Origin: Halomonas sp. I5-271120
GTDB lineage: Bacteria; Pseudomonadota; Gammaproteobacteria; Pseudomonadales; Halomonadaceae
Reading direction: 5' to 3'
DNA length: 64,000 nt
Assembly: GCF_030553075.1 (NCBI RefSeq)
Contig: NZ_CP130701.1
Span: 3,720,001-3,784,000, forward strand
The notes beneath the pieces were generated by a model. The model had not been told where the DNA came from. It ran no database searches and worked only from the letters and a program-made list of their open reading frames with translations. Made by a program: the position numbers and the translations under genes. Below are positions 6,295-17,197 of this stretch, one piece after another. Positions within the stretch are counted from its first letter, which is position 1. Every line of letters starts with the position of its first letter.

Positions 6295-6837
6295 ATGAAA
6301 ACATCTGACCCACGCCTAGTATCACTGACACCAGAGAGCAATCTTTTGATTCCTATGCAGTCCACTACCCTCCACCTACGAGACCTCAACCAGGGTGACG
6401 CATCAGGCCTCCTCGATGACACACCGATCGATATCGGCGCACTCCGACCCACAGGATTTCTGCATCAGAGTGGGGAGATTGAGATCATCAATAGCGCGTT
6501 GTTGAACGACTGGGCGGACCGCCTGCATAGCGAACAGCAGGTGTGCTGTGACCTGATTGACCACAGCCGTCTGGATGCCTCTCTAGTGCTAGTGCTGAGG
6601 TTTTGGTTCGGAGAACGTGCCTGGTGCCAGCATCATCGCCACTCCCGTTACAATGCGAAGGGCAAAAGCTGGCACGAGGTGGTCGACGTGCTGCTAGAGA
6701 ATAGCGAGCTGGAACAGTCGGTTGCTCGTTGTCTGTTCGGTGTGAGCACCCTGACGCTGCATCACTATCGTTTTCTCTGCGCCGAGCGGGTCGTGGAGGG
6801 GACAATCTGTTCATACAGAAAATCACCTAACGCATAG
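6295..6837 (+). CDS. Unknown 180-aa protein, first gene of a recombinase operon
   Basis: I do not recognise this protein. It is soluble, with no signal peptide or membrane segment. The C-terminal third (SWHEVVDVLLENSELEQSVARCLFG and then LTLHHYRFLCAERV) looks helical and could be a helix-turn-helix, but this is a weak reading. The start has agga 9 nt upstream. The stop lies 64 bp before the next gene's probable ATG at 6902, on the same strand and in the same operon as two large recombinase-like proteins. By position it is likely their DNA-binding or accessory partner, comparable in layout to small third proteins of Tn554-like or trio-type elements. Confidence 0.7.
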   Translation: MKTSDPRLVSLTPESNLLIPMQSTTLHLRDLNQGDASGLLDDTPIDIGALRPTGFLHQSGEIEIINSALLNDWADRLHSEQQVCCDLIDHSRLDASLVLVLRFWFGERAWCQHHRHSRYNAKGKSWHEVVDVLLENSELEQSVARCLFGVSTLTLHHYRFLCAERVVEGTICSYRKSPNA

Positions 6838-6901
6838 CCATGCTAAGCAAGCTGCTGTGAGGCCAGCCTCAGAGCAGCTTGACTTGAGAGGACCACTGAC
6901 C

Positions 6902-9367
6902 ATGAGCCTGACCACAACCAAGCGCCATCGACTCCCAAACGAGATCATCAACGATTGGGATACGACACTAGACCAAGCCACGACATTGTCAGAAGGCCAG
7001 CGAAATTTGGTACGAGCTAGCATTAGCTATGCGCTGCCACCCCTCAGTCGATCGGATGTGCTGCAGGCACTGCAGTTTTATCTGAACGACCAAAACGTCC
7101 CTACGACATGGTCCGTCGAGACCCTTGTCGAACAACTGCCCGTCCAGGCCGAACAACGCCGTTACATCGCCACATCTCACCCGCTATACCTGGCGATGAC
7201 GAAGATCACAGGAAGCCACACGCTACATCACAGCTTCCGAAAGGCATGCCGACGCATGATGAGTACCTATTTCGCTCGCGTTTCTCAGGATGCTCACCCG
7301 CAAACACTGTACACCGACGTCGTGCAAACGCGGGATGTCCTGTCGAAAATCGCCAATCAGGATGATAACCAACCTGAAGAGGGTGAGGCGGAGGATCACT
7401 TCCTTATGGGGCGGATCAACTGGTATCTCGCCAACGCAGCTTCGGTACCTCAGAACTGGCGAGACAAGGCAGGCAGGTTCCAACGATTATTCCGTGGCAT
7501 GAACCGTATCGTGGGTGATGGCACTGCATGCAAACCTGGTGTTCGCCAGCAGAATCGCGCTGCCCAGCGTCGTCGTCGGCGAGGGGGGCAGCGTGATGAC
7601 GCCCTCGATAAGGAAATGCAGGAAAGCGTGCGCAAACGAGCGGCACGCCACCAGCAGCCAACATCTCGCCCGTCAATGGATCGACAGGACCAGCAGGAAG
7701 GAACGAGATCCAGTAGCGAATATAGTGGGCTCGTCGAACAGGGGCCCTATCGCCAGGTCCCATCCGCCAGGGCTTCGAACCATGGCGGGGAGGCAGATGA
7801 ACAAGAAGATCTTCTGCAGCGGACCACGCCAAGCACCATGAGTGTTGACGATGATCGACACGTCGTCCAATACGCTCAGCGGATGTCCTTGGTCGATACC
7901 CTGACATCGATGACCGACATTCATCGCCTGACCACTGGCCAGTTGATTGAAGCACTGACCAGTTGTCGACATGATCCCGCACAGTGGGCACTGAGTATTC
8001 TGCTGCTGTGCACCGGGATGCCCCTCGAGAGGCTGCAGTCGCTCACGGTCGATACGACACCGACATGGGAAAAAAGCGCGGATGCAGACGCCCCTCAGGT
8101 GGTCGCGGATAACACGTTATTGACTTATTGTCTGCTGGACGGTCCCAGCAGCACTCCAATGAGCCACGACCACCGCTGGGTCACGCTGGCACTGCCCGAC
8201 GTGCTAATACAAGCCATGCGGCAGGCTGTTGTTGAACAGGGGCGTCAGCCATTTAGGCGTACTGCAAAAACACTCAAACGCCACTGGACGCCAATGTCAC
8301 GCCGTACGGCTGGCCTACCACCGACGCCGAACCGACTGGCGGCTACCAGCTGGATGTTGAAACGCCCCGCGGCACAGGACGATGTGGCGGCCAGGGCGCT
8401 CAGCGGACGTTTCGGCATGGCCCTATCAGCACCGGCAGCTTACCGTGCTCTCGCCCCCGGCGAACTCGATGCCCTCTTCCACAAGGTAGTGTCATACCTC
8501 CTGCCCAGCCTGTCGCCTCGCCCTAGCTGGCTGACAGGGCCTCCCGTTGCCTGGGCTGACACACCGAACCCACGCGCGGCGAACTGGCAGACAGGTTCTC
8601 CACATGCCGTGCCTGTCGCCGAGTTCCGCCCATGGTTCCAGTGGCTACAAAAAGGGATGGGCCGAGCAGCACGGCAGTTCATCAATCCTCTGAACCCTCG
8701 TGAGCGTTCTCCGCAAGCCCTGCTCGAGGTCATTGCCATCTCCGCAGCGCACAGCTACCTCTTGATGTTGCTGACAACGGGTTGCCGTCCCCATGGGACT
8801 CGGGTTCGTTGTGAGCGAGTCGGTGACTACCTGTGGCTAGCTGACAAGAATTCGCCGCGGGCTCTTGAGAGTCGCTGGATTCCCGCAGCCAAAGAGCTAC
8901 AGGCAAGCCTGGATGCGCATCAGCGCCTCGTGGCGGACGCCACCGGCTGGTTAGAGCGCCAAGGTTATACAGTGAATGAGCACCGTCTCGCCGGGGAATT
9001 CTCCCTCTGCGCTGAGATCAATGAGACCCGCCGCACACAGATGGCGGTGGCTCCCATCACTCACCGGCGCTTTATTCAGCAGTTGACCACCCTACAGCCA
9101 AGCGACGCTGAACCACGTCTGGTGCCTGACGACGCCGTCCGCAATATCACCCGCCATAGTATGGCCACTTACTGTAGAGGGCTGTTATCAGAGACGCAGC
9201 TAGCGGCGTTGTTGGGCCATGTCAGCGGATTTCGCCAACAGGGGCCCGGGAGCGCCGCGGCAGGTCCCGCTCGTAGTGCTTGGCAAACCGTTATATCAGA
9301 CCTGCTGAAAGAAGCGGGACATCAAACACTGACCCGGAGCTCACTTCAGCATGCCCTCCGCCACTGA
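6902..9367 (+). CDS. Large tyrosine-recombinase-like protein lacking the nucleophile
   Basis: This protein has 821 aa from the ATG at 6902, which has gagagga 9 nt upstream; the frame also extends to a GTG at 6857. An arginine-rich linker (RRRRRGGQR near residue 227) separates an N-terminal helical region from a C-terminal half that follows a tyrosine-recombinase fold. R629 sits in LLTTGCRPHG, a K lies in ADKNS, NITRH stands in place of HxxRH (N748, R751), and LLGHVSG carries H773. No tyrosine occurs after H773, so the nucleophile is absent, and the motif histidine is asparagine. It is probably a structural or targeting partner of the intact recombinase that overlaps its 3' end by 17 bp. The fold call is moderately confident; the role is inferred. 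Confidence 0.75.
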   Translation: MSLTTTKRHRLPNEIINDWDTTLDQATTLSEGQRNLVRASISYALPPLSRSDVLQALQFYLNDQNVPTTWSVETLVEQLPVQAEQRRYIATSHPLYLAMTKITGSHTLHHSFRKACRRMMSTYFARVSQDAHPQTLYTDVVQTRDVLSKIANQDDNQPEEGEAEDHFLMGRINWYLANAASVPQNWRDKAGRFQRLFRGMNRIVGDGTACKPGVRQQNRAAQRRRRRGGQRDDALDKEMQESVRKRAARHQQPTSRPSMDRQDQQEGTRSSSEYSGLVEQGPYRQVPSARASNHGGEADEQEDLLQRTTPSTMSVDDDRHVVQYAQRMSLVDTLTSMTDIHRLTTGQLIEALTSCRHDPAQWALSILLLCTGMPLERLQSLTVDTTPTWEKSADADAPQVVADNTLLTYCLLDGPSSTPMSHDHRWVTLALPDVLIQAMRQAVVEQGRQPFRRTAKTLKRHWTPMSRRTAGLPPTPNRLAATSWMLKRPAAQDDVAARALSGRFGMALSAPAAYRALAPGELDALFHKVVSYLLPSLSPRPSWLTGPPVAWADTPNPRAANWQTGSPHAVPVAEFRPWFQWLQKGMGRAARQFINPLNPRERSPQALLEVIAISAAHSYLLMLLTTGCRPHGTRVRCERVGDYLWLADKNSPRALESRWIPAAKELQASLDAHQRLVADATGWLERQGYTVNEHRLAGEFSLCAEINETRRTQMAVAPITHRRFIQQLTTLQPSDAEPRLVPDDAVRNITRHSMATYCRGLLSETQLAALLGHVSGFRQQGPGSAAAGPARSAWQTVISDLLKEAGHQTLTRSSLQHALRH

Positions 9368-11963
9368 AAACATGTCACACCATATCTGGAGCTATCTGGA
9401 GGGCAACCACGTGAACCAAGACCGCCCTGATGACAGCGTTGCCTCCCCTCAGTCCGATCTGTGTCGAAAGGATCGCACGAGCCGTTCAGCATTGGTCTGG
9501 CAGATCAGCCAGCGCTTGCCTGCCCATGTCAACGCCGACGGCGTGGTAACGGATAAAGGGGTCCGCCAGATTACGGATGAGCTATACGAATGGCTGAAGG
9601 AGACCCAGCCTACACCGCCAAGGCGTCGCCACCACCAGCGCCGAGTCGAGGCGATAGTCGCCTCACTCAACGCCCTCCCCGAACTGACGATCCTGCTGCC
9701 TACCCGGGCAGTGCCGATGCCTCGCCCCAGCCACGCGCCGACGTCAATACAGGAAACACAAGGACTGGCCGCCATGCAGGTGGTAGATCGGCACCTCGAT
9801 GCCTGGCGTAAACAGACCCATCACCCAGACCGCTGGTTGCTGACCTTGGCGATCCGGATGGGCTGCCGGCTAGGGATGGGACCGAAGGTGCTGGTGGGTA
9901 CCCTGGCCTTGCTGGGTACGCGTCATGTCGATAAGGCCAATCGCAGGGTTAAGCTACCGTCACAGTTCCAGAATAACCAACCGCTCCAGGAGGCATGGGA
10001 GAACACGGGGACCCCTGGCGCCCCTACGGGAGGCAAGCAAGGAAGCAGGGGCCTCGAGAATGATCCGGCTCATCAATCGATGGGCTATTATACCCTCCAG
10101 CTGCCGCGGGCGGTGATGGACCCCCTCACCCATCTGCTGCATGTCGCATCAGGCCAGCGATGTGAGTGGTTGGCGCTGGAGCGCCCCGGCAAGACAGTGC
10201 CCAAGCCCCATACGCGTCAACAGCAGCTTCAAAAGCGACTGGATCACGCTGCGAAGACCTTGCTCAAAGAGATGAAACAGGCATACCCTCAGCACCGCTC
10301 AACGCTCAACCGGCTGTCGAGTTGGTCCACCATGGGCCGCTACGCGGCGCTTGTTGCGCAACACAAGGGAATCGCCTCTGTATGGCTGGACATCCTGTCA
10401 GACTATCCTCTGCCGACCGACTCAGGCGAACCGATCACCTGCGGGAATGGCCGAGACCGCTACGCACCTGGCGGCCGGGGCCACAGGCATGAGACAAGTC
10501 ACCAGCCCGAGGCATTGAATCACCATGTCAGCGACGCTGCTTTGCTCAGGCCGAAGGGGCGGGACAGTAGGCTCAAGACAGATGATCTCGCCGTCACGAC
10601 GCCAGGCGGAACCGATGGAGACGTGCAGCCTTTGTCCATCGATCAAAGCTATGCGCTTCGTCATGCCGTCTTAAGGTTTTCAGGTCAGCTACAGAGTCTC
10701 ACGACCGTCAACAAGCTGAAGGCTCAAAGGTACCAGGCTCCCCTTCGGCAACTGCGCCATGACACGATGAAAAAGCTCACCGAGATCGTGGGAACCGAAG
10801 ATAGCTTCGGGCACTGGCTGGTGGCTTTCGCCTGCAGCCAACTGGTCCACCATGAGAGTAAGATTTCGAGCGTTCGAACCTATCTGTCGCGCCTGATGCC
10901 GCCGCCTCTGCTGCTCCATGATGCCATTGCCGATGTCCCCGGTTGGGACCAGGACAGCGTTGATGAACTCTGCAATGAGGGACAATCCTATAAGCGCTGG
11001 GGGCATAACACTCGCCAGCATTTTTTGCGCACGATGGGAATGTTTATCCAATTCTGCCAGGACTACCACATCCTCGAGGACGTTAACCCCCCTTCTTCCT
11101 CAGAGGCACACCTCTCTACTCGTCGGACACGGATGGTCAATCCTTTGCAGATGGATCAGGCCTGGCGGTCATTGGTCGGACATACACATCCCAGCCAGAC
11201 CAACACCCAGTTTGCCTTGAGCCTTGCCCTGGGCTATTACGCGGGCCTGCGTGCCTCGGAAGTCTGTCAGCTGACACTGCGTGATATTCGGATCGAGCAA
11301 CCGGACCTGCATGGTGAATGGGCAGCACTTCATCAACACTTCGCCAAGGGATTACAGGCGTCAGCGACGCCCGACAGCAAGGTGATGCTTGAGTGCTGGG
11401 TCTATATCCGTTGCGGAAAGACGTCCTCGGCCCGCCGGCGGCTGCCACTCCACCTGTTGGCGCCACCCGAGGTCACGCAATGCCTGGTCCGCTGGTGGGA
11501 CACCCGCCGCGACGTCGCCCCGACACACGACCTGAAAGATATTGGGCTCTTTGGCCCGTTGTTCAGCCCACTGGCTTACCAACGTCAGGGCTTGATTGAT
11601 CCGCTGCTGGATTGGCTCCGTCAACGCTGGGGGAGCGGTATTGATTTCCACGGGCTCCGCCATAGCGCGGCTTCCTGGTGGCAATTGCGCCTGCATGCCG
11701 CCCAACATGCAGACTTTCGCGAATCACTGCACTATCGGTTCCACTGGATGTTCCAACCGGAAGCCCTGGAGCATTTCCTGGTCTATCTGTGTGGTGCCGA
11801 GGGAAGCGAGTCGATCGAGAAAGGCTCGCTGATCGGCCAGCTAGCCAAGTTGATCGGTCACCGGCACGTCAACACCTTGTTGCATACCTACAGCCATTCG
11901 CTGGGCTTGATTCACAGTCATGCCTTGGACATGACGTGGTCTAACCGACGTGCGACCTCTTGA
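9351..11963 (+). CDS. Large tyrosine recombinase with intact catalytic residues
   Basis: This is an 870-aa protein if started at ATG 9351, or 850 aa from GTG 9411. The GTG has the better Shine-Dalgarno (ggaggg, 8-nt gap). The C-terminal third is a full tyrosine-recombinase domain: R634 (GLRASEV), K690 (RCGKTSS), H767 and R770 (HGLRHSA), H837 (IGHRHV) and nucleophile Y847 (LLHTYSH). A SAM-like core-binding region precedes it (about 480-590). The first ~450 residues are unassigned and unusual in size, since ordinary integrases are 300-450 aa. Expected to act on DNA ends of the element that carries it, with the overlapping upstream gene as partner. Confidence 0.85.
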   Translation: MPSATENMSHHIWSYLEGNHVNQDRPDDSVASPQSDLCRKDRTSRSALVWQISQRLPAHVNADGVVTDKGVRQITDELYEWLKETQPTPPRRRHHQRRVEAIVASLNALPELTILLPTRAVPMPRPSHAPTSIQETQGLAAMQVVDRHLDAWRKQTHHPDRWLLTLAIRMGCRLGMGPKVLVGTLALLGTRHVDKANRRVKLPSQFQNNQPLQEAWENTGTPGAPTGGKQGSRGLENDPAHQSMGYYTLQLPRAVMDPLTHLLHVASGQRCEWLALERPGKTVPKPHTRQQQLQKRLDHAAKTLLKEMKQAYPQHRSTLNRLSSWSTMGRYAALVAQHKGIASVWLDILSDYPLPTDSGEPITCGNGRDRYAPGGRGHRHETSHQPEALNHHVSDAALLRPKGRDSRLKTDDLAVTTPGGTDGDVQPLSIDQSYALRHAVLRFSGQLQSLTTVNKLKAQRYQAPLRQLRHDTMKKLTEIVGTEDSFGHWLVAFACSQLVHHESKISSVRTYLSRLMPPPLLLHDAIADVPGWDQDSVDELCNEGQSYKRWGHNTRQHFLRTMGMFIQFCQDYHILEDVNPPSSSEAHLSTRRTRMVNPLQMDQAWRSLVGHTHPSQTNTQFALSLALGYYAGLRASEVCQLTLRDIRIEQPDLHGEWAALHQHFAKGLQASATPDSKVMLECWVYIRCGKTSSARRRLPLHLLAPPEVTQCLVRWWDTRRDVAPTHDLKDIGLFGPLFSPLAYQRQGLIDPLLDWLRQRWGSGIDFHGLRHSAASWWQLRLHAAQHADFRESLHYRFHWMFQPEALEHFLVYLCGAEGSESIEKGSLIGQLAKLIGHRHVNTLLHTYSHSLGLIHSHALDMTWSNRRATS

Positions 11964-12350
11964 TGCCGCTCGACGGGCCGCCATGCCGGCATCGCCAAGG
12001 CACGCAAGAAAGGTATCTGACGCGGGATGACCAGAAAAGCATGACAGGCATGGCGCCTGTCACCAAAATGCCATCAGCCTCACCGGAACTGAAGATGGGG
12101 TGATATCTGAATGACATACCTGATTACCCCCTTTAATCGACAAAGCGATAAAAGGGAATAATCTTTATGAATCATTCAGCTTACCCCAAGCCCAGGGCGT
12201 CCCAGCTCCCTGCAGCACGCCCACTCCTTTCCTTGTTAGTCGCACTGACAACAGCCTGAGAAAACGAGACAGCCAGCATGGTCGGCGGGTAGACCGATAT
12301 ATGTGCCATATCCCATTTACCGGGAAACAGCAATCTGCTAACTTATCTGT
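11964..12350. other. Intergenic, end of recombinase operon
   Basis: No gene is seen. An inverted repeat (gacaggc 12043-12049, gcctgtc 12055-12061) lacks a T-run and is a weak terminator at best. The stretch around 12110-12180 is AT-rich. The promoter of the C4-like leader that begins near 12350 is probably in the last 50-100 bases, but no clear -35/-10 pair stands out. Confidence 0.4.
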
Positions 12351-12352
12351 GT

Positions 12353-12400
12353 CGAGTCAAATTACTCGATCGGGTTTGGCGACCCGATTCAGGAAGGCGC
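12353..12400 (+). promoter_or_regulatory. Leader hairpins with first (a1/b1-like) C4 pairing sites
   Basis: Two hairpins sit here: cgagt/actcg (12353-12368) and atcgggt/acccgat (12369-12388). The loop of the second contains ttggcga (12376-12382), complementary to tcgccaa in the C4-like RNA (12503-12509). Just after it, tcaggaagg (12389-12397) pairs with the C4 loop, allowing one G-U. This mirrors the a1/b1 sites upstream of phage C4 RNAs. Confidence 0.6.
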
Positions 12401-12403
12401 ACA

Positions 12404-12432
12404 AGCGCCCTACCATGGTTGGCGCTTTTTTT
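12404..12432 (+). terminator. Intrinsic terminator inside the C4-like leader
   Basis: The stem agcgcc (12404-12409) / ggcgct (12421-12426) is followed by seven T. The left arm can instead pair with ggcgc at 12396-12400, giving a competing hairpin, so the leader has the layout of an attenuator. It lies between the upstream pairing sites and the C4-like body. Confidence 0.75.
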
Positions 12433-12450
12433 GTGTCTGCCATGCGTTAT

Positions 12451-12525
12451 GGCGGTCGTGCGTGGGAGACCTTCGGGTCTGCCGGTGTCCTTTCTGACCG
12501 GTTCGCCAACCTGCGTACGGCCGCC
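12451..12525 (+). ncRNA. C4-like antisense RNA
   Basis: A closing stem of 12 bp with two G-U pairs (12451-12462 with 12514-12525) encloses two hairpins. One is agacc-UUCG-ggtct (12467-12480). The other is ccggt/accgg with a 10-nt loop (12482-12501). The loop-side sequence tcctttctga (12488-12497) is perfectly complementary to tcagaaagga (12561-12570), which contains the Shine-Dalgarno of the following gene. The segment tcgccaa (12503-12509) is complementary to ttggcga at 12537-12543. This two-contact design is the hallmark of the C4 antisense RNAs of phages P1, P7 and P4. Translated in one frame the region gives the RTAAPITVWRQRG motif of proteins annotated as Icd-like in prophages, which supports family membership. 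Confidence 0.75.
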
Positions 12526-12534
12526 CCCATCACT

Positions 12535-12582
12535 GTTTGGCGACAGCGGGGACGGCTCCATCAGAAAGGAGCTTTACCCATG
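12535..12582 (+). promoter_or_regulatory. C4 target sites and ribosome-binding site of the helicase operon
   Basis: Contains ttggcga (12537-12543) and tcagaaagga (12561-12570), each complementary to unpaired parts of the C4-like RNA, followed by ATG at 12580. Pairing would bury the Shine-Dalgarno and stop translation of the first gene and, through the ATGA couplings, of the two genes behind it. Confidence 0.65.
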
Positions 12583-12786
12583 GTCAAGTTGACTGTGTCC
12601 CCTCATCGCAGCGATCGCCGTGCGCGTGCTGCCGCCCATCGCGCCATGGCCATGTCGGCCCTGGCTTCCAACTGCAGTGAATCCGTCCGCTACCGGCGCT
12701 ATCACGCTCATATGCGCAAGGCCCATACGCTGGCCCTGCTCGCCGACCAGGAAGGCAATGATGCCCTCTGGGAGGTGACATCATGA
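12580..12786 (+). CDS. Small basic protein, first gene of the C4-controlled operon
   Basis: A 68-aa protein rich in Arg, His and Ala (RRARAAAHRAMAMSALAS), with no recognised domain. The ATG at 12580 is chosen because aaagga lies 9 nt upstream; the longer frame back to 12301 runs through the structured leader and is not credible as a protein. The stop overlaps the next start as ATGA. Similar short proteins directly follow C4 RNAs in other integrated elements. The function is unknown; it may serve mainly to couple translation. Confidence 0.65.
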   Translation: MVKLTVSPHRSDRRARAAAHRAMAMSALASNCSESVRYRRYHAHMRKAHTLALLADQEGNDALWEVTS

Positions 12787-13394
12787 GCACGCTGCCTCCC
12801 TCTGTGCCCCAGGCATCACAAGCGCAATACGCCACCTCGATTGGCACGCGTATCAGTGTGCAGATGGACTGGCTCATCGCTGACTATGCCGCAAGCGGCG
12901 AGCGTTTCACGGTCTGTGAATGGCGTGACCGCTTGATCAAACTTCCAGAGCTGGCTCGCGCCTGTCCCAAGTCCTTGCGCTACCGCATCCGTGACCGGAT
13001 TAAGGCACTGCAACAGCAGGGGCTGGCCCATCAGGTGGACTTTCAGGGCAAGCGTCGCCCCGTCTTCGTGCTCGAGCCTGCGGCCTGTCCCGAGGATCAT
13101 GTGCCTGCCTCTGGTGATCTCGAGACACAGGCGTCGGTTGATGCCGCCCATCCTGCATCAGCGCTGCCCTTTGCCGAGTTTCTGAACCAGGAATGCCATC
13201 GCCTCAAGCTTGATATGCAAGCCGCGCTGGGTGAAGCAAGCCACTACGCCTACATCCTGCAGCAGTATCCCGACCAACGCACGGTGATCGAGCCGCTGCA
13301 TCAAGCGGCCTGCCAACGTGGCAGCGAGGCAAAAGGGGCGCTGGACGCTGTGGTGACCCTACGTCAGCAGATCGTTGAGGAGGCAACATCATGA
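12783..13394 (+). CDS. Unknown 203-aa protein, winged-helix-like, helicase partner
   Basis: The first ~100 residues read like a winged helix: RLIKLPELARACPKSLRYRI, RDRIKALQQQGLAHQV and a beta-wing FQGKRRPVFVLEP. A linker follows, then a helical and probably coiled-coil C-terminal half rich in Q, E and A (about 125-200). The gene is coupled on both sides by 4-bp ATGA overlaps, so it is made in step with the helicase behind it and probably acts with it. No family is recognised; a DNA-binding adaptor role is inferred from the fold guess and context. Confidence 0.65.
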   Translation: MSTLPPSVPQASQAQYATSIGTRISVQMDWLIADYAASGERFTVCEWRDRLIKLPELARACPKSLRYRIRDRIKALQQQGLAHQVDFQGKRRPVFVLEPAACPEDHVPASGDLETQASVDAAHPASALPFAEFLNQECHRLKLDMQAALGEASHYAYILQQYPDQRTVIEPLHQAACQRGSEAKGALDAVVTLRQQIVEEATS

Positions 13395-14938
13395 CCATCA
13401 GAAAAACCAACCGGTTGCTGCCATTGACCGATTGCCCAGCACTGCGGCCTTGGCAAGCTCGTTGTATCGAACAGGCCTTGCAGACCTTGTCGGATACGCA
13501 CCCCCACTTTCTGTGTCAGGCGACGCCGGGGGCCGGCAAGATGCTGATGGCGGCGGTGCTCGCCGATGAACTCATGCAAAGCGATGCCATCGACCTGGTG
13601 ATTTACCTGGGGCCCACCACCGCAGTGGTCGAGCGCGCCCAAATCATCTTCGAGCAGATAACAGGCCGGGCCATGCACGGACGTCTGGGCGCGGCCGGGG
13701 CGGCCTTTACCTACCATGCCTTGCATCATCGCCTGGCTGAACTTCAACAGCTCAGCCAGCAGGGACGCGTGCTGTTGGTCTGGGATGAAAGTCACCATGC
13801 GGCCAGTCATACGGGCAACATGGCCGGTGCCAACCAGTGGGGATTGGGATTGCTGGCACTGGAACGGCTGGTACGTTTTACCTTGGCGCTCTCGGGTACC
13901 CCATGGCGCTCGGATGGTAGCTGCCTGCCGTTGCTTCGCTATATGGAGAGCACCCGAGACGATGGCCCTTCAGAAGATGACCAGGATACAGCCACGCAGC
14001 AACATCAGCTGGTGCCGGATTTTGTCTACTCGTTACAAGAAGCAATTGTGGATCGGGTTTGCCGCTACCCACGTGTCCATTTGATCGACAATCGCGATAT
14101 TCAGCTATCGACGTTTCAGCCCAAAGAGCAGCAACGGGCGACGCATCACTACGCCAGCATCCCTCACCTGCTGCGTCACCCAGCCGTCAGTTACTCGGCA
14201 CTGCTCAGGCACACCGAGCCACTGGCGCATGTGCTGTCTTTGGGTTGCCAGCGGCTGGCGCAGCTGCGTCAGCACGATCCCGATGCGGCGGGGTTGGTGG
14301 TCGCGTCAGACATTGCGCATGCCGAAGACCTCGCGGAGCACCTGGAAGACCTTGGCCACACCGTGTGCCTGGTCACCAGCAAGTCACCGAATGCCCATGC
14401 ACGACTCAATGCCTTTCGAGACGCCCAGACCCCTTGGATTGTATCGGTTGGCATGGTCAGCGAGGGCGTCGACATACCCCGCCTTCGCGTCTGCTGCTAC
14501 TTGAGCCACGTCCGCACTGAGCAATATTTCCGTCAGGTGCTGGGACGCATCATTCGCCGAGAGGACACCGATGATGCCGACTGCTACCTCTATGCGCTCA
14601 ACGAACCTTACCTACGCCGTTATGCCCGTCGCATCACGGATGACCTGCCAGACGATCTGGCCTCGGTCACGCTTGGTCAGGCGTCTCACGGGGCGGATGC
14701 AAGGCGGGACTATCCTGGCCATCTCCCTGACGATGAGCCCGATGCCTCGCACCTCCCACCCGTGGGTGAAAACGATGACGTCTACGCCAACCCCGAGATA
14801 GAGGCCAATCCGAGCTCACCCGAGGTGCAGCTGAGTATGGGTGGTGATGGCAACCACTCCATCGCGACAGATCCCGACTTGGCCTTCTCGCAGGCGTTTA
14901 TCGCTCGGCTCGTTGCCCTCCGATTGCCCTCGTCTTAG
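13391..14938 (+). CDS. SF2 DEAD/DEAH-type helicase (ResIII-like)
   Basis: This 515-aa protein has the ordered SF2 motifs: Q-tip region LRPWQARCIEQAL, motif I ATPGAGKM (44-51), motif II DESH (132-135), motif III SGT (168-170), motif V GMVSEGVDI (354-362) and motif VI QVLGRIIRR (382-390). It resembles the helicase halves of type I/III restriction subunits, with no nuclease or methylase part visible. The C-terminal ~120 residues are acidic and unassigned. Motif I ends GKM where Ser or Thr normally coordinates Mg2+, an unusual substitution. It is coupled to the 203-aa gene by ATGA and controlled by the C4-like leader. A role in element maintenance or phage defence is plausible but inferred. Confidence 0.85.
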   Translation: MTIRKTNRLLPLTDCPALRPWQARCIEQALQTLSDTHPHFLCQATPGAGKMLMAAVLADELMQSDAIDLVIYLGPTTAVVERAQIIFEQITGRAMHGRLGAAGAAFTYHALHHRLAELQQLSQQGRVLLVWDESHHAASHTGNMAGANQWGLGLLALERLVRFTLALSGTPWRSDGSCLPLLRYMESTRDDGPSEDDQDTATQQHQLVPDFVYSLQEAIVDRVCRYPRVHLIDNRDIQLSTFQPKEQQRATHHYASIPHLLRHPAVSYSALLRHTEPLAHVLSLGCQRLAQLRQHDPDAAGLVVASDIAHAEDLAEHLEDLGHTVCLVTSKSPNAHARLNAFRDAQTPWIVSVGMVSEGVDIPRLRVCCYLSHVRTEQYFRQVLGRIIRREDTDDADCYLYALNEPYLRRYARRITDDLPDDLASVTLGQASHGADARRDYPGHLPDDEPDASHLPPVGENDDVYANPEIEANPSSPEVQLSMGGDGNHSIATDPDLAFSQAFIARLVALRLPSS

Positions 14939-15050
14939 CAAGGGCCATCCCGTGCCGCGTTCGACCTGGTACCTCCTGATGTAGTCAGCAGCAGGTATCC
15001 GTCATGGGCGTCAGGCGCACGGGAATCAGCCGGGCTAAAGGTTAATCCCC

Positions 15051-16100
15051 ATGCCTGCCATGCATGAGGGAGAAGCGACGTCATCGAATAAGCAGGTAGT
15101 AGCAACAGGGGTCAATATGAAACGGACATCACCGCAACATCAGACGACTAACCCGTACACAGCCAGCGACAGGAAAAGCGTAACCGCCCATCCTGAAGGG
15201 CTGACGTCGGAAGCACGACGGTTGCTGGCGGAAAGTGTGTCGCCCAACACCGTACGTGCCATGCGCGCCGACCTGCGGGTTTATCGTCAATCGGGGGGCC
15301 AACTGCCGGCCACCGAGACGCAAATTGCCAACTATCTCTCCAGCCAGAATGCATTGGGCAAAAAGCCGGCCACTCTTTCGCGCTATGCCAACTCGTTGCA
15401 TATGTGGCACCGGTATATGAACCTGCCGTCTCCGGTTAAGACCATGGCCGTGAGAAGCGTCTTGCGGGGAATCAACAAAACACGCGATCGCCGACAGGCT
15501 TCAGCGCCTGCCCTGCGGCTACGCGAGCTTCATACACTTCTCGATGCACTCGACCGGGGTACGCTACATGGTCTGAGAGACAGCGCCCTGTTCGCCCTTT
15601 GCTTCTATGGTGCCTTTCGCCGCAGCGAGATCGTTGCCATGGAACTTGACGATATTGAGTGGCGCCCGCAAGGCATTACCATCACGCTTCATCAGAGCAA
15701 GACCAACCAAGGGGGCAGAGTCGAGACCAAAAGCATCATGCGAGCACCGAGTGGCACTCGCTATTGCGCCGTCGCCCTGCTCGAGAAATGGCTCAGGGCA
15801 TCAGGTATCAAACGCAAGGCTGTCTTTCGAGGTATTAGCAGCAAGGGCCGACTGTCCTCGGGGCGCTTGTCCGATCATACCGTATACCTGCGGATGAAAC
15901 AGGGGCTTGAGAAGGCTGGCCTGTCGGAGATTGGCTATACACCCCACAGCTTTCGCGCTGGGTTTATCACGGAAGCGCATTTGAGGGGCAAAAGCGATAT
16001 ACAAATCAAGCGGGTCAGCGGGCATCGTAGCCAGAATACCTTCGAACGCTATATTCGCATTGCCGATGAATTCGAAGACAGTGCCGGTGATTTCTTTTAA
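15051..16100 (+). CDS. Tyrosine recombinase / integrase
   Basis: A 349-aa phage-integrase-type recombinase. The N-terminal core-binding domain spans about residues 50-150 (SPNTVRAMRADLRVYRQ onward). Catalytic residues are R190 or R191 (AFRRSEIV), a beta-hairpin K in HQSKTNQGG, H299 and R302 (HSFRAG), H325 (SGHRS) and Y334 (ERYIR). An alternative start at ATG 15117 has aggggt upstream and gives a 327-aa protein; both are plausible. The gene stands 110 bp after the helicase gene and is the last one before galE, so it probably drove insertion of the island or part of it next to the polysaccharide locus. Confidence 0.88.
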   Translation: MPAMHEGEATSSNKQVVATGVNMKRTSPQHQTTNPYTASDRKSVTAHPEGLTSEARRLLAESVSPNTVRAMRADLRVYRQSGGQLPATETQIANYLSSQNALGKKPATLSRYANSLHMWHRYMNLPSPVKTMAVRSVLRGINKTRDRRQASAPALRLRELHTLLDALDRGTLHGLRDSALFALCFYGAFRRSEIVAMELDDIEWRPQGITITLHQSKTNQGGRVETKSIMRAPSGTRYCAVALLEKWLRASGIKRKAVFRGISSKGRLSSGRLSDHTVYLRMKQGLEKAGLSEIGYTPHSFRAGFITEAHLRGKSDIQIKRVSGHRSQNTFERYIRIADEFEDSAGDFF

Positions 16101-16124
16101 CTGGAGTGGTTAAGCTCCAAAACG

Positions 16125-16154
16125 CAGTAGCCCGGCGCCAAGGCCGGGCTACTG
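16125..16154 (-). terminator. Strong terminator between integrase and galE
   Basis: A perfect 12-bp stem (16125-16136 with 16143-16154, arms cagtagcccggc) with a 6-nt loop. Reading the minus strand it is followed by cgtttt, so it mainly terminates the long polysaccharide operon after galE. It could also stop convergent transcription from the integrase. Confidence 0.8.
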
Positions 16155-16180
16155 AAATGATGGTATGAACTCAAGGCTCA

Positions 16181-17197
16181 CTATGAGCTGTAACCCTGCG
16201 GGTTCTGCTCCTGCCATCGCCATGTATCCTTCATCATGGCATCAAGGTCTCTTTGTGCTTTCCATCCTAATTCACGCTCAGCCTTGGAGGGATCAGCCCA
16301 GCACTCAGCAATATCACCTTCCCGACGAGGAGCAATGCGATATGGAACGTTACGACCTGAAGCCACCTCAAAAGCCTGAACCATGTTGAGTACGGAATAT
16401 CCTTGCCCTGTTCCCAAGTTCCAGATGCCGATCCCAGACTGCCGCGCAATGGCCTGCATGGCACATAGATGACCATCCACCAAATCACTCACATGAATAT
16501 AATCACGAACGCCAGTACCATCCGGCGTTGAGTAGTCGTTGCCATAAACAGAAAGCTCATCACGTCGACCGATAGCGACCTGAGAAATGAACGGAACAAG
16601 GTTGTTGGGAATATCGTTAGGATCTTCTCCGATCAAGCCACTCTCATGAGCTCCAACTGGATTAAAGTAACGCAACAAAGCAATCGACCAACGAGAATCT
16701 GCCTTGGCAAGATCCTTCAGCACCTCTTCCACCATTAGCTTGGAACGGCCATAGGGGTTGGTTGGGGTGCCGGTGGGCAATCCCTCGTGTATGGGCATCG
16801 TTGCCACCTCGCCATACACGGTGGCCGAAGAACTGAAGACCAGTCGTCTAACCCCCGCAGCGTCCATGGCCTGGCATAAGGTCAAGGTACCACTGACATT
16901 ATTTTCGAAGTAACGGAGAGGTTGCTCTACGCTTTGCCCAACCGCTTTCAGGCCAGCGAAGTGCAGTACATCTGAGATGTCATGCTCAGAAAATAGCTGA
17001 TCGAGCAATGCGCGATCACGGATATCGCCTTCGACAAAAATCACAGAATTGCCAGTAATACTTTCTACTCGACGTAGTGCCTCAAGAGAAGAATTCGCCA
17101 GATTATCCAGCACCATTACATCATGCTGATGCTCCAGTAGTGAAAGCACCATATGGGAGCCAATATAGCCAGCACCCCCAGTCACCAAAATGGACAT
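16181..17197 (-). CDS. galE: UDP-glucose 4-epimerase
   Basis: Interconverts UDP-glucose and UDP-galactose in the cytoplasm using bound NAD+, supplying galactose (and via Ugd possibly galacturonate precursors) for the polysaccharide. The 338-aa length is standard. Visible features are the Rossmann motif GGAGYIGS near the N-terminus, SSSATVYG and the catalytic NPYGRSK (Tyr-x3-Lys), then the family's LLRYFNPVGAH and VRDYIHVSDLVDGH. It is the last gene of the minus-strand locus, 31 bp after the initiating transferase and followed by a strong terminator. Confidence 0.96.
   Translation of the reverse strand: MSILVTGGAGYIGSHMVLSLLEHQHDVMVLDNLANSSLEALRRVESITGNSVIFVEGDIRDRALLDQLFSEHDISDVLHFAGLKAVGQSVEQPLRYFENNVSGTLTLCQAMDAAGVRRLVFSSSATVYGEVATMPIHEGLPTGTPTNPYGRSKLMVEEVLKDLAKADSRWSIALLRYFNPVGAHESGLIGEDPNDIPNNLVPFISQVAIGRRDELSVYGNDYSTPDGTGVRDYIHVSDLVDGHLCAMQAIARQSGIGIWNLGTGQGYSVLNMVQAFEVASGRNVPYRIAPRREGDIAECWADPSKAERELGWKAQRDLDAMMKDTWRWQEQNPQGYSS

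Follow-up and report, generated by a model that had tools for sequence, protein, structure and literature searches.

Accounts of C4 antisense RNAs concern phages and also Acinetobacter chromosomes, where the RNAs are considered to derive from phages. In P1 and P7, the RNA is processed by RNase P, and its segments a' and b' act on target sequences and ribosome-binding sites (PMC5320573); the C4 of P1 shares an operon with icd and ant (PMC8198154). The CI RNA of phage P4 (seqA/seqC) is an antisense RNA derived from its own leader, with targets on both sides and termination within the leader, and the genes under its control are replication genes (PMC4825925). In the same source, IsrK of Gifsy-1 acts on orf45/anrP, and its account suggests that STnc1160 of Gifsy-1 may be regarded as C4-like (PMC4825925). 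In Rfam, the family c4-a1b1 (RF03163) represents a1 and b1 as targets of C4.

The locus considered here lies in a 64-kb window, the term used below for the whole stretch of DNA that was analyzed. In our reading, the segment serves as control region for a cassette built around a C4-type antisense RNA, which would act on a downstream operon through the leader and the Shine-Dalgarno region; from the sequence, we give this a probability of about 0.8. The features of the control region and of the operon are as follows.

12316-12344, + strand: promoter-like pair TTTACC - 17 nt - TAACTT, a possible start of the leader/C4/operon transcript (conservation of position)
12351-12432, + strand: IsrK-like leader with a1/b1 and a terminator (RF01394 match below cut-off)
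12376-12382, + strand: target a1, partner of a' (12503-12509), a 7-nt exact complement that co-varies with a' in relatives
12389-12397, + strand: target b1, partner of the b' loop by way of one G-U pair (co-variation in relatives)
12403-12432, + strand: intrinsic terminator between b1 and the C4 body, stem 12403-12409/12421-12427, T-run 12426-12432 (fold)
12445-12531, + strand: C4 antisense RNA (RF01695, 77.1 bits; stem covariation)
12488-12497, + strand: b' loop segment, complementary to the Shine-Dalgarno region (exact pairing and co-variation)
12503-12509, + strand: a' segment (exact pairing and co-variation)
12537-12543, + strand: target a2, 7 nt exactly complementary to a' (co-variation)
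12561-12570, + strand: target b2 over the Shine-Dalgarno region of the 68-aa gene, a 10-nt exact complement of the loop
12580-12786, + strand: 68-aa gene, the first in the operon and the first frame after b2
12783-13394, + strand: gene for a 203-aa winged-helix protein, overlapping the 68-aa gene by 4 nt
13391-14938, + strand: gene for a 515-aa SF2 helicase (ResIII, Helicase_C), overlapping the 203-aa gene by 4 nt

This arrangement resembles that of the P1/P7 C4 (RF01695) in the structure of the RNA body, the a' and b' segments, the positions of a1/b1 upstream and a2/b2 downstream, and the location of b2 on a ribosome-binding site, but it differs from P1 in that the genes beside it encode a 68-aa protein, a winged-helix protein, and an SF2 helicase close to recombinase genes rather than icd and ant. 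As in P4, the RNA would derive from its own leader, with targets on both sides and a terminator in the leader, and would control replication genes. It also resembles the IsrK/STnc1160 region of Gifsy-1 (RF01394) in having an IsrK-like leader and terminator directly before a C4-like RNA, although neither orf45 nor anrP is among the operon genes here and the match to the isrK model is below its cut-off. In the proposed mechanism, a transcript probably starting near 12350 would carry, in order, the leader with a1 and b1, the intrinsic terminator, the C4 RNA, a2 and b2, and the operon. The C4 RNA would be freed from its own transcript, presumably by RNase P, and would pair in trans by way of a' and the b' loop, either with a1/b1 of nascent leaders, which is expected to favor termination, or with a2/b2 on longer transcripts, which would mask the Shine-Dalgarno region of the first frame. 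The operon would be silenced as a result, and because the genes overlap by 4 nt at both junctions, blocking the first start is expected to lower the expression of all three. By analogy with immunity in P1, P7, and P4, and in view of the diversity of specificities described below, the operon may be released when the element enters a cell without a matching C4.

The presence of a C4-type RNA, which the original prediction had claimed from the letters alone, was confirmed with the Rfam model: RF01695 matches 12445-12531 (+) at 77.1 bits against a curated cut-off of 45 (E 2.4e-13). This is the sole match when the whole 64-kb window is scanned with Rfam at curated cut-offs, and the genome (4.04 Mb) carries only this one C4. 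The closing stem, which had been put at 12 bp (12451-12462/12514-12525), exists but is longer; the Rfam alignment and the MFE fold both give 16 pairs, 12451-12466 with 12510-12525, enclosing a UUCG hairpin at 12467-12480. One extra outer pair of the C4 model is unformed in all 22 distinct aligned sequences, including that of the window. In the three-helix body, 96.3% of the alignment cells are paired. Covariation of the stems in homologues, which had been proposed as a check, was found, with changes on both sides in 11 of 27 pairs and 0 of 500 shuffles scoring as high, but it should be noted that, as the tool itself warns, such scores can rise through relatedness alone. The covariation is located in helices 1 and 2, and none of the 11 double-changed pairs falls in the near-invariant helix 3. 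The RNA of the window belongs to the C4 family by each testable feature.

Within the bacterial family to which the window belongs, C4 matches are present in 112 of 275 genomes. Of the 147 C4 places, 101 including the window were examined, mostly the higher scoring ones, to which the census is biased; removal of duplicates leaves 95 distinct loci. By cargo, the 101 loci comprise 23 of helicase type (22 distinct), 2 in which the 203-aa gene is followed by the end of the contig, 54 assigned to replicase-type genes (Toprim, DUF927, and DUF3987), 7 in a cluster whose representative is a P22_AR_N antirepressor, and 15 that are unassigned. These classes are single-linkage clusters of downstream frames, and the Pfam scans behind them covered representatives of several clusters, chiefly 0, 5, 27, and 37; one locus, L139, is placed only by its membership of cluster 47. 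Unlike P4, the window operon has no Toprim, DUF927, or DUF3987 replicase detectable with Pfam, whereas such genes account for the 54 loci of the largest class. The cargo is indeed a 68-aa/203-aa/SF2-helicase operon rather than an antirepressor, as had been proposed, but a cargo other than an antirepressor is common in this family, with 54 of the 101 loci assigned to replicase genes and 7 to the antirepressor cluster.

Read in reverse complement, the loop segment 12488-12497 (UCCUUUCUGA) is identical with 12561-12570, and a' (UCGCCAA) is identical with both 12537-12543 and 12376-12382. The 10-nt complement of the ribosome-binding site and the 7-nt match between 12503-12509 and 12537-12543, both claimed in the original prediction, are thus exact when read at their coordinates. 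It had also described weaker copies of both targets upstream. Both are present, but only one of them is weaker: 12389-12397 (UCAGGAAGG) has a single base changed relative to 12561-12569, and the changed base can still form a G-U pair with the loop, so that b1 of the window pairs over 9 nt with one G-U and with just 4 exact consecutive pairs, whereas 12376-12382 is an exact complement of a'. Target b2 ends 9 nt ahead of the ATG at 12580.

These complementarities persist while the sequences themselves vary: across the 95 distinct loci of the family, the loop and a' segments change in step with all four of their targets. An RNA matches its own target over 7 nt or more in 91 of these loci for b2, 93 for a2, 92 for a1, and 80 for b1, compared with 521/8310, 408/7400, 485/7400, and 231/8310, respectively, in mismatched pairs, and at no site was the observed mean match reached by any of 1000 permutations. 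The window is one of the 15 distinct loci with a b1 match of fewer than 7 exact nt. In the 22 distinct helicase-type loci, the corresponding numbers are 22 (b2), 21 (a2), 22 (a1), and 21 (b1), again with 0 of 1000 permutations, but the test of a' is weak in this subset because one a' is common to most of its members and mismatched pairs reach at least 7 nt in 149/268 and 148/268 cases. At a threshold of at least 9 nt, the loop matches the Shine-Dalgarno region in 75 of 101 own pairs and in 86 of 9406 mismatched pairs. All four sites are matched over at least 7 nt in 80 of the 101 loci and in 20 of the 23 helicase-type loci, the exceptions in the latter being the window (b1) and L080 and L081 (a2). 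The distinct loci contain 39 loop variants and 15 a' variants in 60 combinations, counts that use fixed positions and are inflated by loci with an indel. The model match, the stem covariation, and the co-variation of loop and targets support the original proposal that the C4 RNA is aimed at the ribosome-binding site of the 68-aa/203-aa/SF2-helicase operon, and C4-type silencing of this operon is, as a prediction, well supported.

The 68-aa protein belongs to no Pfam or NCBIfam family. Of the 23 helicase-type loci, 16 have a first frame downstream of b2 that the 68-aa profile recognizes; the remaining 7 have an unrelated frame there, which in three cases ends after 42 codons. The 7 loci (L062, L069, L071, L072, L074, L075, and L077) retain both the C4 and b2. 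Because every one of the 23 helicase-type loci keeps b2, with matches of 7 to 11 nt, although the first frame is not conserved, control may be directed at the two later genes and not at the 68-aa protein. A profile built from 15 helicase-type copies of the 68-aa protein finds 42 of the other 45 proteins in its cluster, 40 of which come from loci without the 203-aa gene, in a test that is partly circular in that the cluster was itself built by BLAST. This fits a cassette of small gene and C4 that is set before different operons, an association that is not universal. In the AlphaFold2 model of the 203-aa protein (mean pLDDT 79.1, pTM 0.41), a winged helix is accompanied by a helical hairpin at the C terminus; the model gives weak matches to PadR/MarR-like folds, none of them at E <= 0.001 in the fold search. 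Homologues of this protein, P0001-P0009, carry a precomputed Pfam label, PF27192, that is absent from the Pfam scan of the window protein. The helicase has Pfam matches to ResIII (46 bits) and Helicase_C (27.1 bits), both over the cut-off and the only families above cut-off in the Pfam scan of the operon proteins, and it is assigned to phrog_16 (DNA helicase). A sequence search of the PDB with the helicase gave two weak matches of the XPB type, and PADLOC gave only partial helicase matches. A phage origin of the helicase was considered and rejected: a phage collection yielded five distant records, none covering 80%, and viral contigs yielded none.

The leader is of a kind described previously. 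In a sensitive scan of 12200-12700, the isrK model (RF01394) matches 12351-12432 at 44.7 bits (E 1.7e-8 in 501 nt; cut-off 50), and c4-a1b1 (RF03163) matches 12338-12390 at 33.7 bits (E 7.7e-7; cut-off 46.7). The isrK cut-off is reached in 4 of the 20 helicase orthologue loci L003-L022 and also in L184, which appears to be the same place as L005. All 23 helicase-type loci have a pair resembling a promoter (TTTACN, a spacing of 16-18 nt, and a loose -10 element) at a similar position, as against 2 of the 78 remaining C4 loci and 24 of 2020 shuffles, but it should be recognized that the pattern was picked only after inspection of the helicase-type loci, and the candidate promoter rests on the conservation of its position; a generic sigma-70 scan of 12100-12700 found no promoter. 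The intrinsic terminator that had been placed between the upstream targets and the RNA body is present in the fold, as a 7-bp stem followed by a run of seven T, whereas a generic terminator scan restricted to loops of 3-8 nt found none. A T-run of at least 4 is present in 20 of the 23 helicase-type loci. The further claim that the terminator adds an attenuation step does not hold as a novelty, since the second set of targets and the terminator are part of an arrangement already described, resembling the IsrK/seqA-type leader and the c4-a1b1 targets (PMC4825925), and the T-run is missing in 3 of the 23 loci.

This leader raises the question of whether the RNA acts chiefly by terminating transcription there, as the P4 CI RNA does, with the translational block being secondary. 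The order of a1/b1, terminator, and C4 is like that of an IsrK/seqA-type leader, premature termination is used by P4 (PMC4825925), a1 and b2 are matched equally often (each in all 22 distinct helicase-type loci), and 7 of 23 loci lack the conserved first gene. However, the longest match in the helicase-type set is that to the Shine-Dalgarno region, with a mean of 8.8 nt as compared with 7.1 for a1 and 8.0 for b1, and the T-run has been lost in some loci, as noted above. A mechanism dominated by termination is therefore a possible but tentative alternative to action at both the leader and the Shine-Dalgarno region.

Comparison of the helicase module across the family indicates that the C4 is one of two regulators associated with it. 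Helicase orthologues were found across the family, and in 18 of the 20 loci L003-L022 a C4 lies about 1 kb upstream of the helicase gene; the other two, L003 and L008, end at contig ends. Among L023-L031, a C4 is present in L023, L024, and L026, L025 ends at a contig end, L029-L031 fall in a more distant class, and in the helicase fragments L027 and L028 neither a C4, an HTH gene, nor a match to the 203-aa protein was found. The more distant relatives that were read comprise 20 chromosomal loci (41-48% identity), which are a subset of the lower-identity helicase places, and 10 of the 66 plasmid records matched (35-47% identity). A small divergent helix-turn-helix (HTH) gene stands immediately ahead of the 203-aa homologue in all 10 plasmid loci and 19 of the 20 chromosomal ones, the exception being L200, where the contig ends. 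No C4 reaches the cut-off in the 29 of these 30 loci that were scanned (all but L194). Conversely, the HTH gene has no match in positions 9000-17000 of the window, and in 22 relatives of the C4 class no HTH gene adjoins the operon, the one match (L062) being about 5 kb off. The 203-aa protein and its partner in the HTH class are related by profile comparison (99.1%, E 7.8e-19), and its profile finds 10 of 10 partners. A tree of 52 helicases falls into two parts on a single branch with 100/100 support, the 23 members of the C4 class on one side and the 28 of the HTH class, together with L200, on the other; L187, in which the helicase frame was found only in part, was left out, long branches among the plasmid sequences were flagged by the tool, and the root is a midpoint only, such that the tree shows one change but does not give its direction.

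These comparisons point to a clean exchange of regulators, C4 versus a divergent HTH gene, on one winged-helix/helicase module. The HTH gene, presumably a repressor as predicted, occupies the position of the C4 in the relatives, and the two therefore most likely fill the same role. The plasmid modules (L192 and L187 among them) have a homologous winged-helix protein and helicase in the same order as in the window, but differ in having the divergent HTH gene in place of the C4, and those of their recombination proteins that were tested are not convincingly related to the 836-, 870-, and 349-aa proteins of the window. One genome, G165, holds both versions of the module, HTH-headed (L204) and C4-headed (L062). 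The two classes allow control by an RNA and control by a protein to be compared on one operon as they occur in nature, and suggest a shared need to hold the helicase off in a resident element. What is new here is the cargo, in that a C4 heads a winged-helix and SF2-helicase pair near recombinase genes, along with the carrier and the exchange between C4 and an HTH gene. No title or abstract beginning in the literature search showed a C4 before this helicase pair, a weak result in that the search was mostly without subscription papers.

Several observations count against the C4 cassette as the best explanation: the 4 exact pairs of b1 in the window, the unmatched a2 of L080 and L081, the isrK and c4-a1b1 scores below their cut-offs, the T-run missing in 3 of 23 loci, the unrelated first frame in 7 of 23, and the lack of both a C4 and an HTH gene in L027 and L028.

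The genes flanking the operon that are thought to serve recombination, together with the recombinase gene downstream, are the following.

6295-6837, + strand: 180-aa gene, upstream, thought to serve recombination
6857-9367, + strand: 836-aa gene, upstream, thought to serve recombination
9351-11963, + strand: 870-aa gene with an integrase domain, upstream, thought to serve recombination
15051-16100, + strand: 349-aa tyrosine recombinase gene, downstream of the operon (Phage_integrase, 57.5 bits)

The 870-aa protein matches Phage_integrase at 26.6 bits, slightly below the cut-off of 27.1, and is assigned to phrog_1 (integrase). The 180- and 836-aa proteins have no convincing family match, the latter giving no match in Pfam, NCBIfam, or PADLOC; PADLOC also gave nothing for the 68-, 203-, and 870-aa proteins. 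In the 20 helicase-type loci L062-L081, a homologue of the 349-aa recombinase follows the helicase in 15, and homologues of the 836- and 870-aa proteins are found in 14 and 13, respectively. The latter two stand before or after the C4 module, always on its strand. In some loci the 836- and 870-aa genes precede the module and in others they follow it (window 6295-16100, L062, L065, L066, and L069), as if the island were circularly permuted. The DNA around the operon looks like a mobile island. Assignment to the gamma-mobile-trio (GMT) islands, which are marked by a gmtY recombinase together with gmtX and a protein of GmtZ type, was rejected, as the 349-aa recombinase scores 19.8 against a GmtY cut-off of 340 and the 836- and 870-aa proteins match no Gmt family; the 180-aa protein was covered in this test by the Pfam scan only.

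In the HTH class, the modules have different neighbors: recombinase sets in L185, L190, and L194, an annotated gamma-mobile-trio in L192, and, in L187, an element with TnsA, TniB, TniQ, and type I-F Cas genes. When the recombination proteins of the window were compared one by one with L185, L188, L190, and L192, at most a weak similarity at the level of integrases was found, and profile searches of all frames of L185-L214 gave only weak signals of the same kind, the best being that of the 870-aa profile with the gmtY frame of L192 (E 0.0068; hhalign probability 30%). Because the winged-helix/helicase module sits beside dissimilar recombination machinery, it looks portable. In L187 (5043-7377, a Vibrio penaeicida plasmid), the HTH/winged-helix/helicase module lies between genes of TniB and TniQ type, and the helicase there corresponds to no listed gene.

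A broader, tentative interpretation, which we consider conceivable although somewhat less probable than its converse, is that the C4 RNA constitutes an immunity (exclusion) system of non-phage integrative islands, with RNA and protein immunity being interchangeable parts of one module. Were this so, the resident C4 would silence the winged-helix/helicase operon of incoming islands of the same specificity, entry into a cell without a matching C4 would allow the operon to drive excision, copying, or establishment, and the HTH-headed versions would act alike through a protein repressor. Exclusion of matching islands is suggested by the immunity of P1, P7, and P4 and by the diversity of specificities, and the many C4 specificities with matched targets are material for exclusion tests between islands. 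The rival proposal that the targets of the C4 lie mainly in trans on other elements, incoming relatives being excluded, and not in its own operon, could draw on the 60 loop/a' combinations among 95 distinct loci (with the inflation by indels noted above), but the large majority of C4 RNAs match their own adjacent targets, which makes it unlikely.

It is more improbable still that the C4 is a remnant of a decayed prophage with no present function. The b1 match of the window is weakened by one G-U pair, G167, which is called the same species, has neither a C4 match nor a helicase match, and no phage structural gene is present among the proteins scanned in the annotated part of the window. Against this, the three operon genes and the neighboring recombinase genes are open frames, the 10-nt exact match persists in the window, and a'/b' and their targets stay matched while both vary across the family. 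That the segment is instead coding, with the 161-aa frame 12301-12786 representing one protein and the C4-like pattern its by-product, is extremely improbable, for although the frame set by the first ATG downstream of b2 runs uninterrupted across the C4 in 14 of the 23 helicase-type loci, including the window, it is closed in the other 9, the C4-to-ATG distance varies from 44 to 53 nt such that the frame shifts relative to the C4, and the stems and target sites co-vary; the closed frames and varying spacing are the grounds on which the leader was rejected as coding sequence.

Some minor observations concern the surroundings of these modules. In L178, from the genome G163 of the same genus, positions 6632-6841 are 84% identical with 15978-16188 of the window, corresponding to the last ~120 bp of the 349-aa gene and the stretch following it; this segment adjoins polysaccharide genes that are also related, the stretch fetched does not contain the remainder of the island, and the segment may mark an attachment site or a deletion scar. 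Elsewhere in the window, 132-512 encodes an HTH_3 protein, which we take to be HigA-like from its appearance, and a Mutator-family transposase at 1319-2611 seems to be split over two frames (with 1322-1765 being the part scanned). Near the HTH-headed module of L196, positions 7499-7535 match the abiF RNA at 47.3 bits, over its cut-off of 37.
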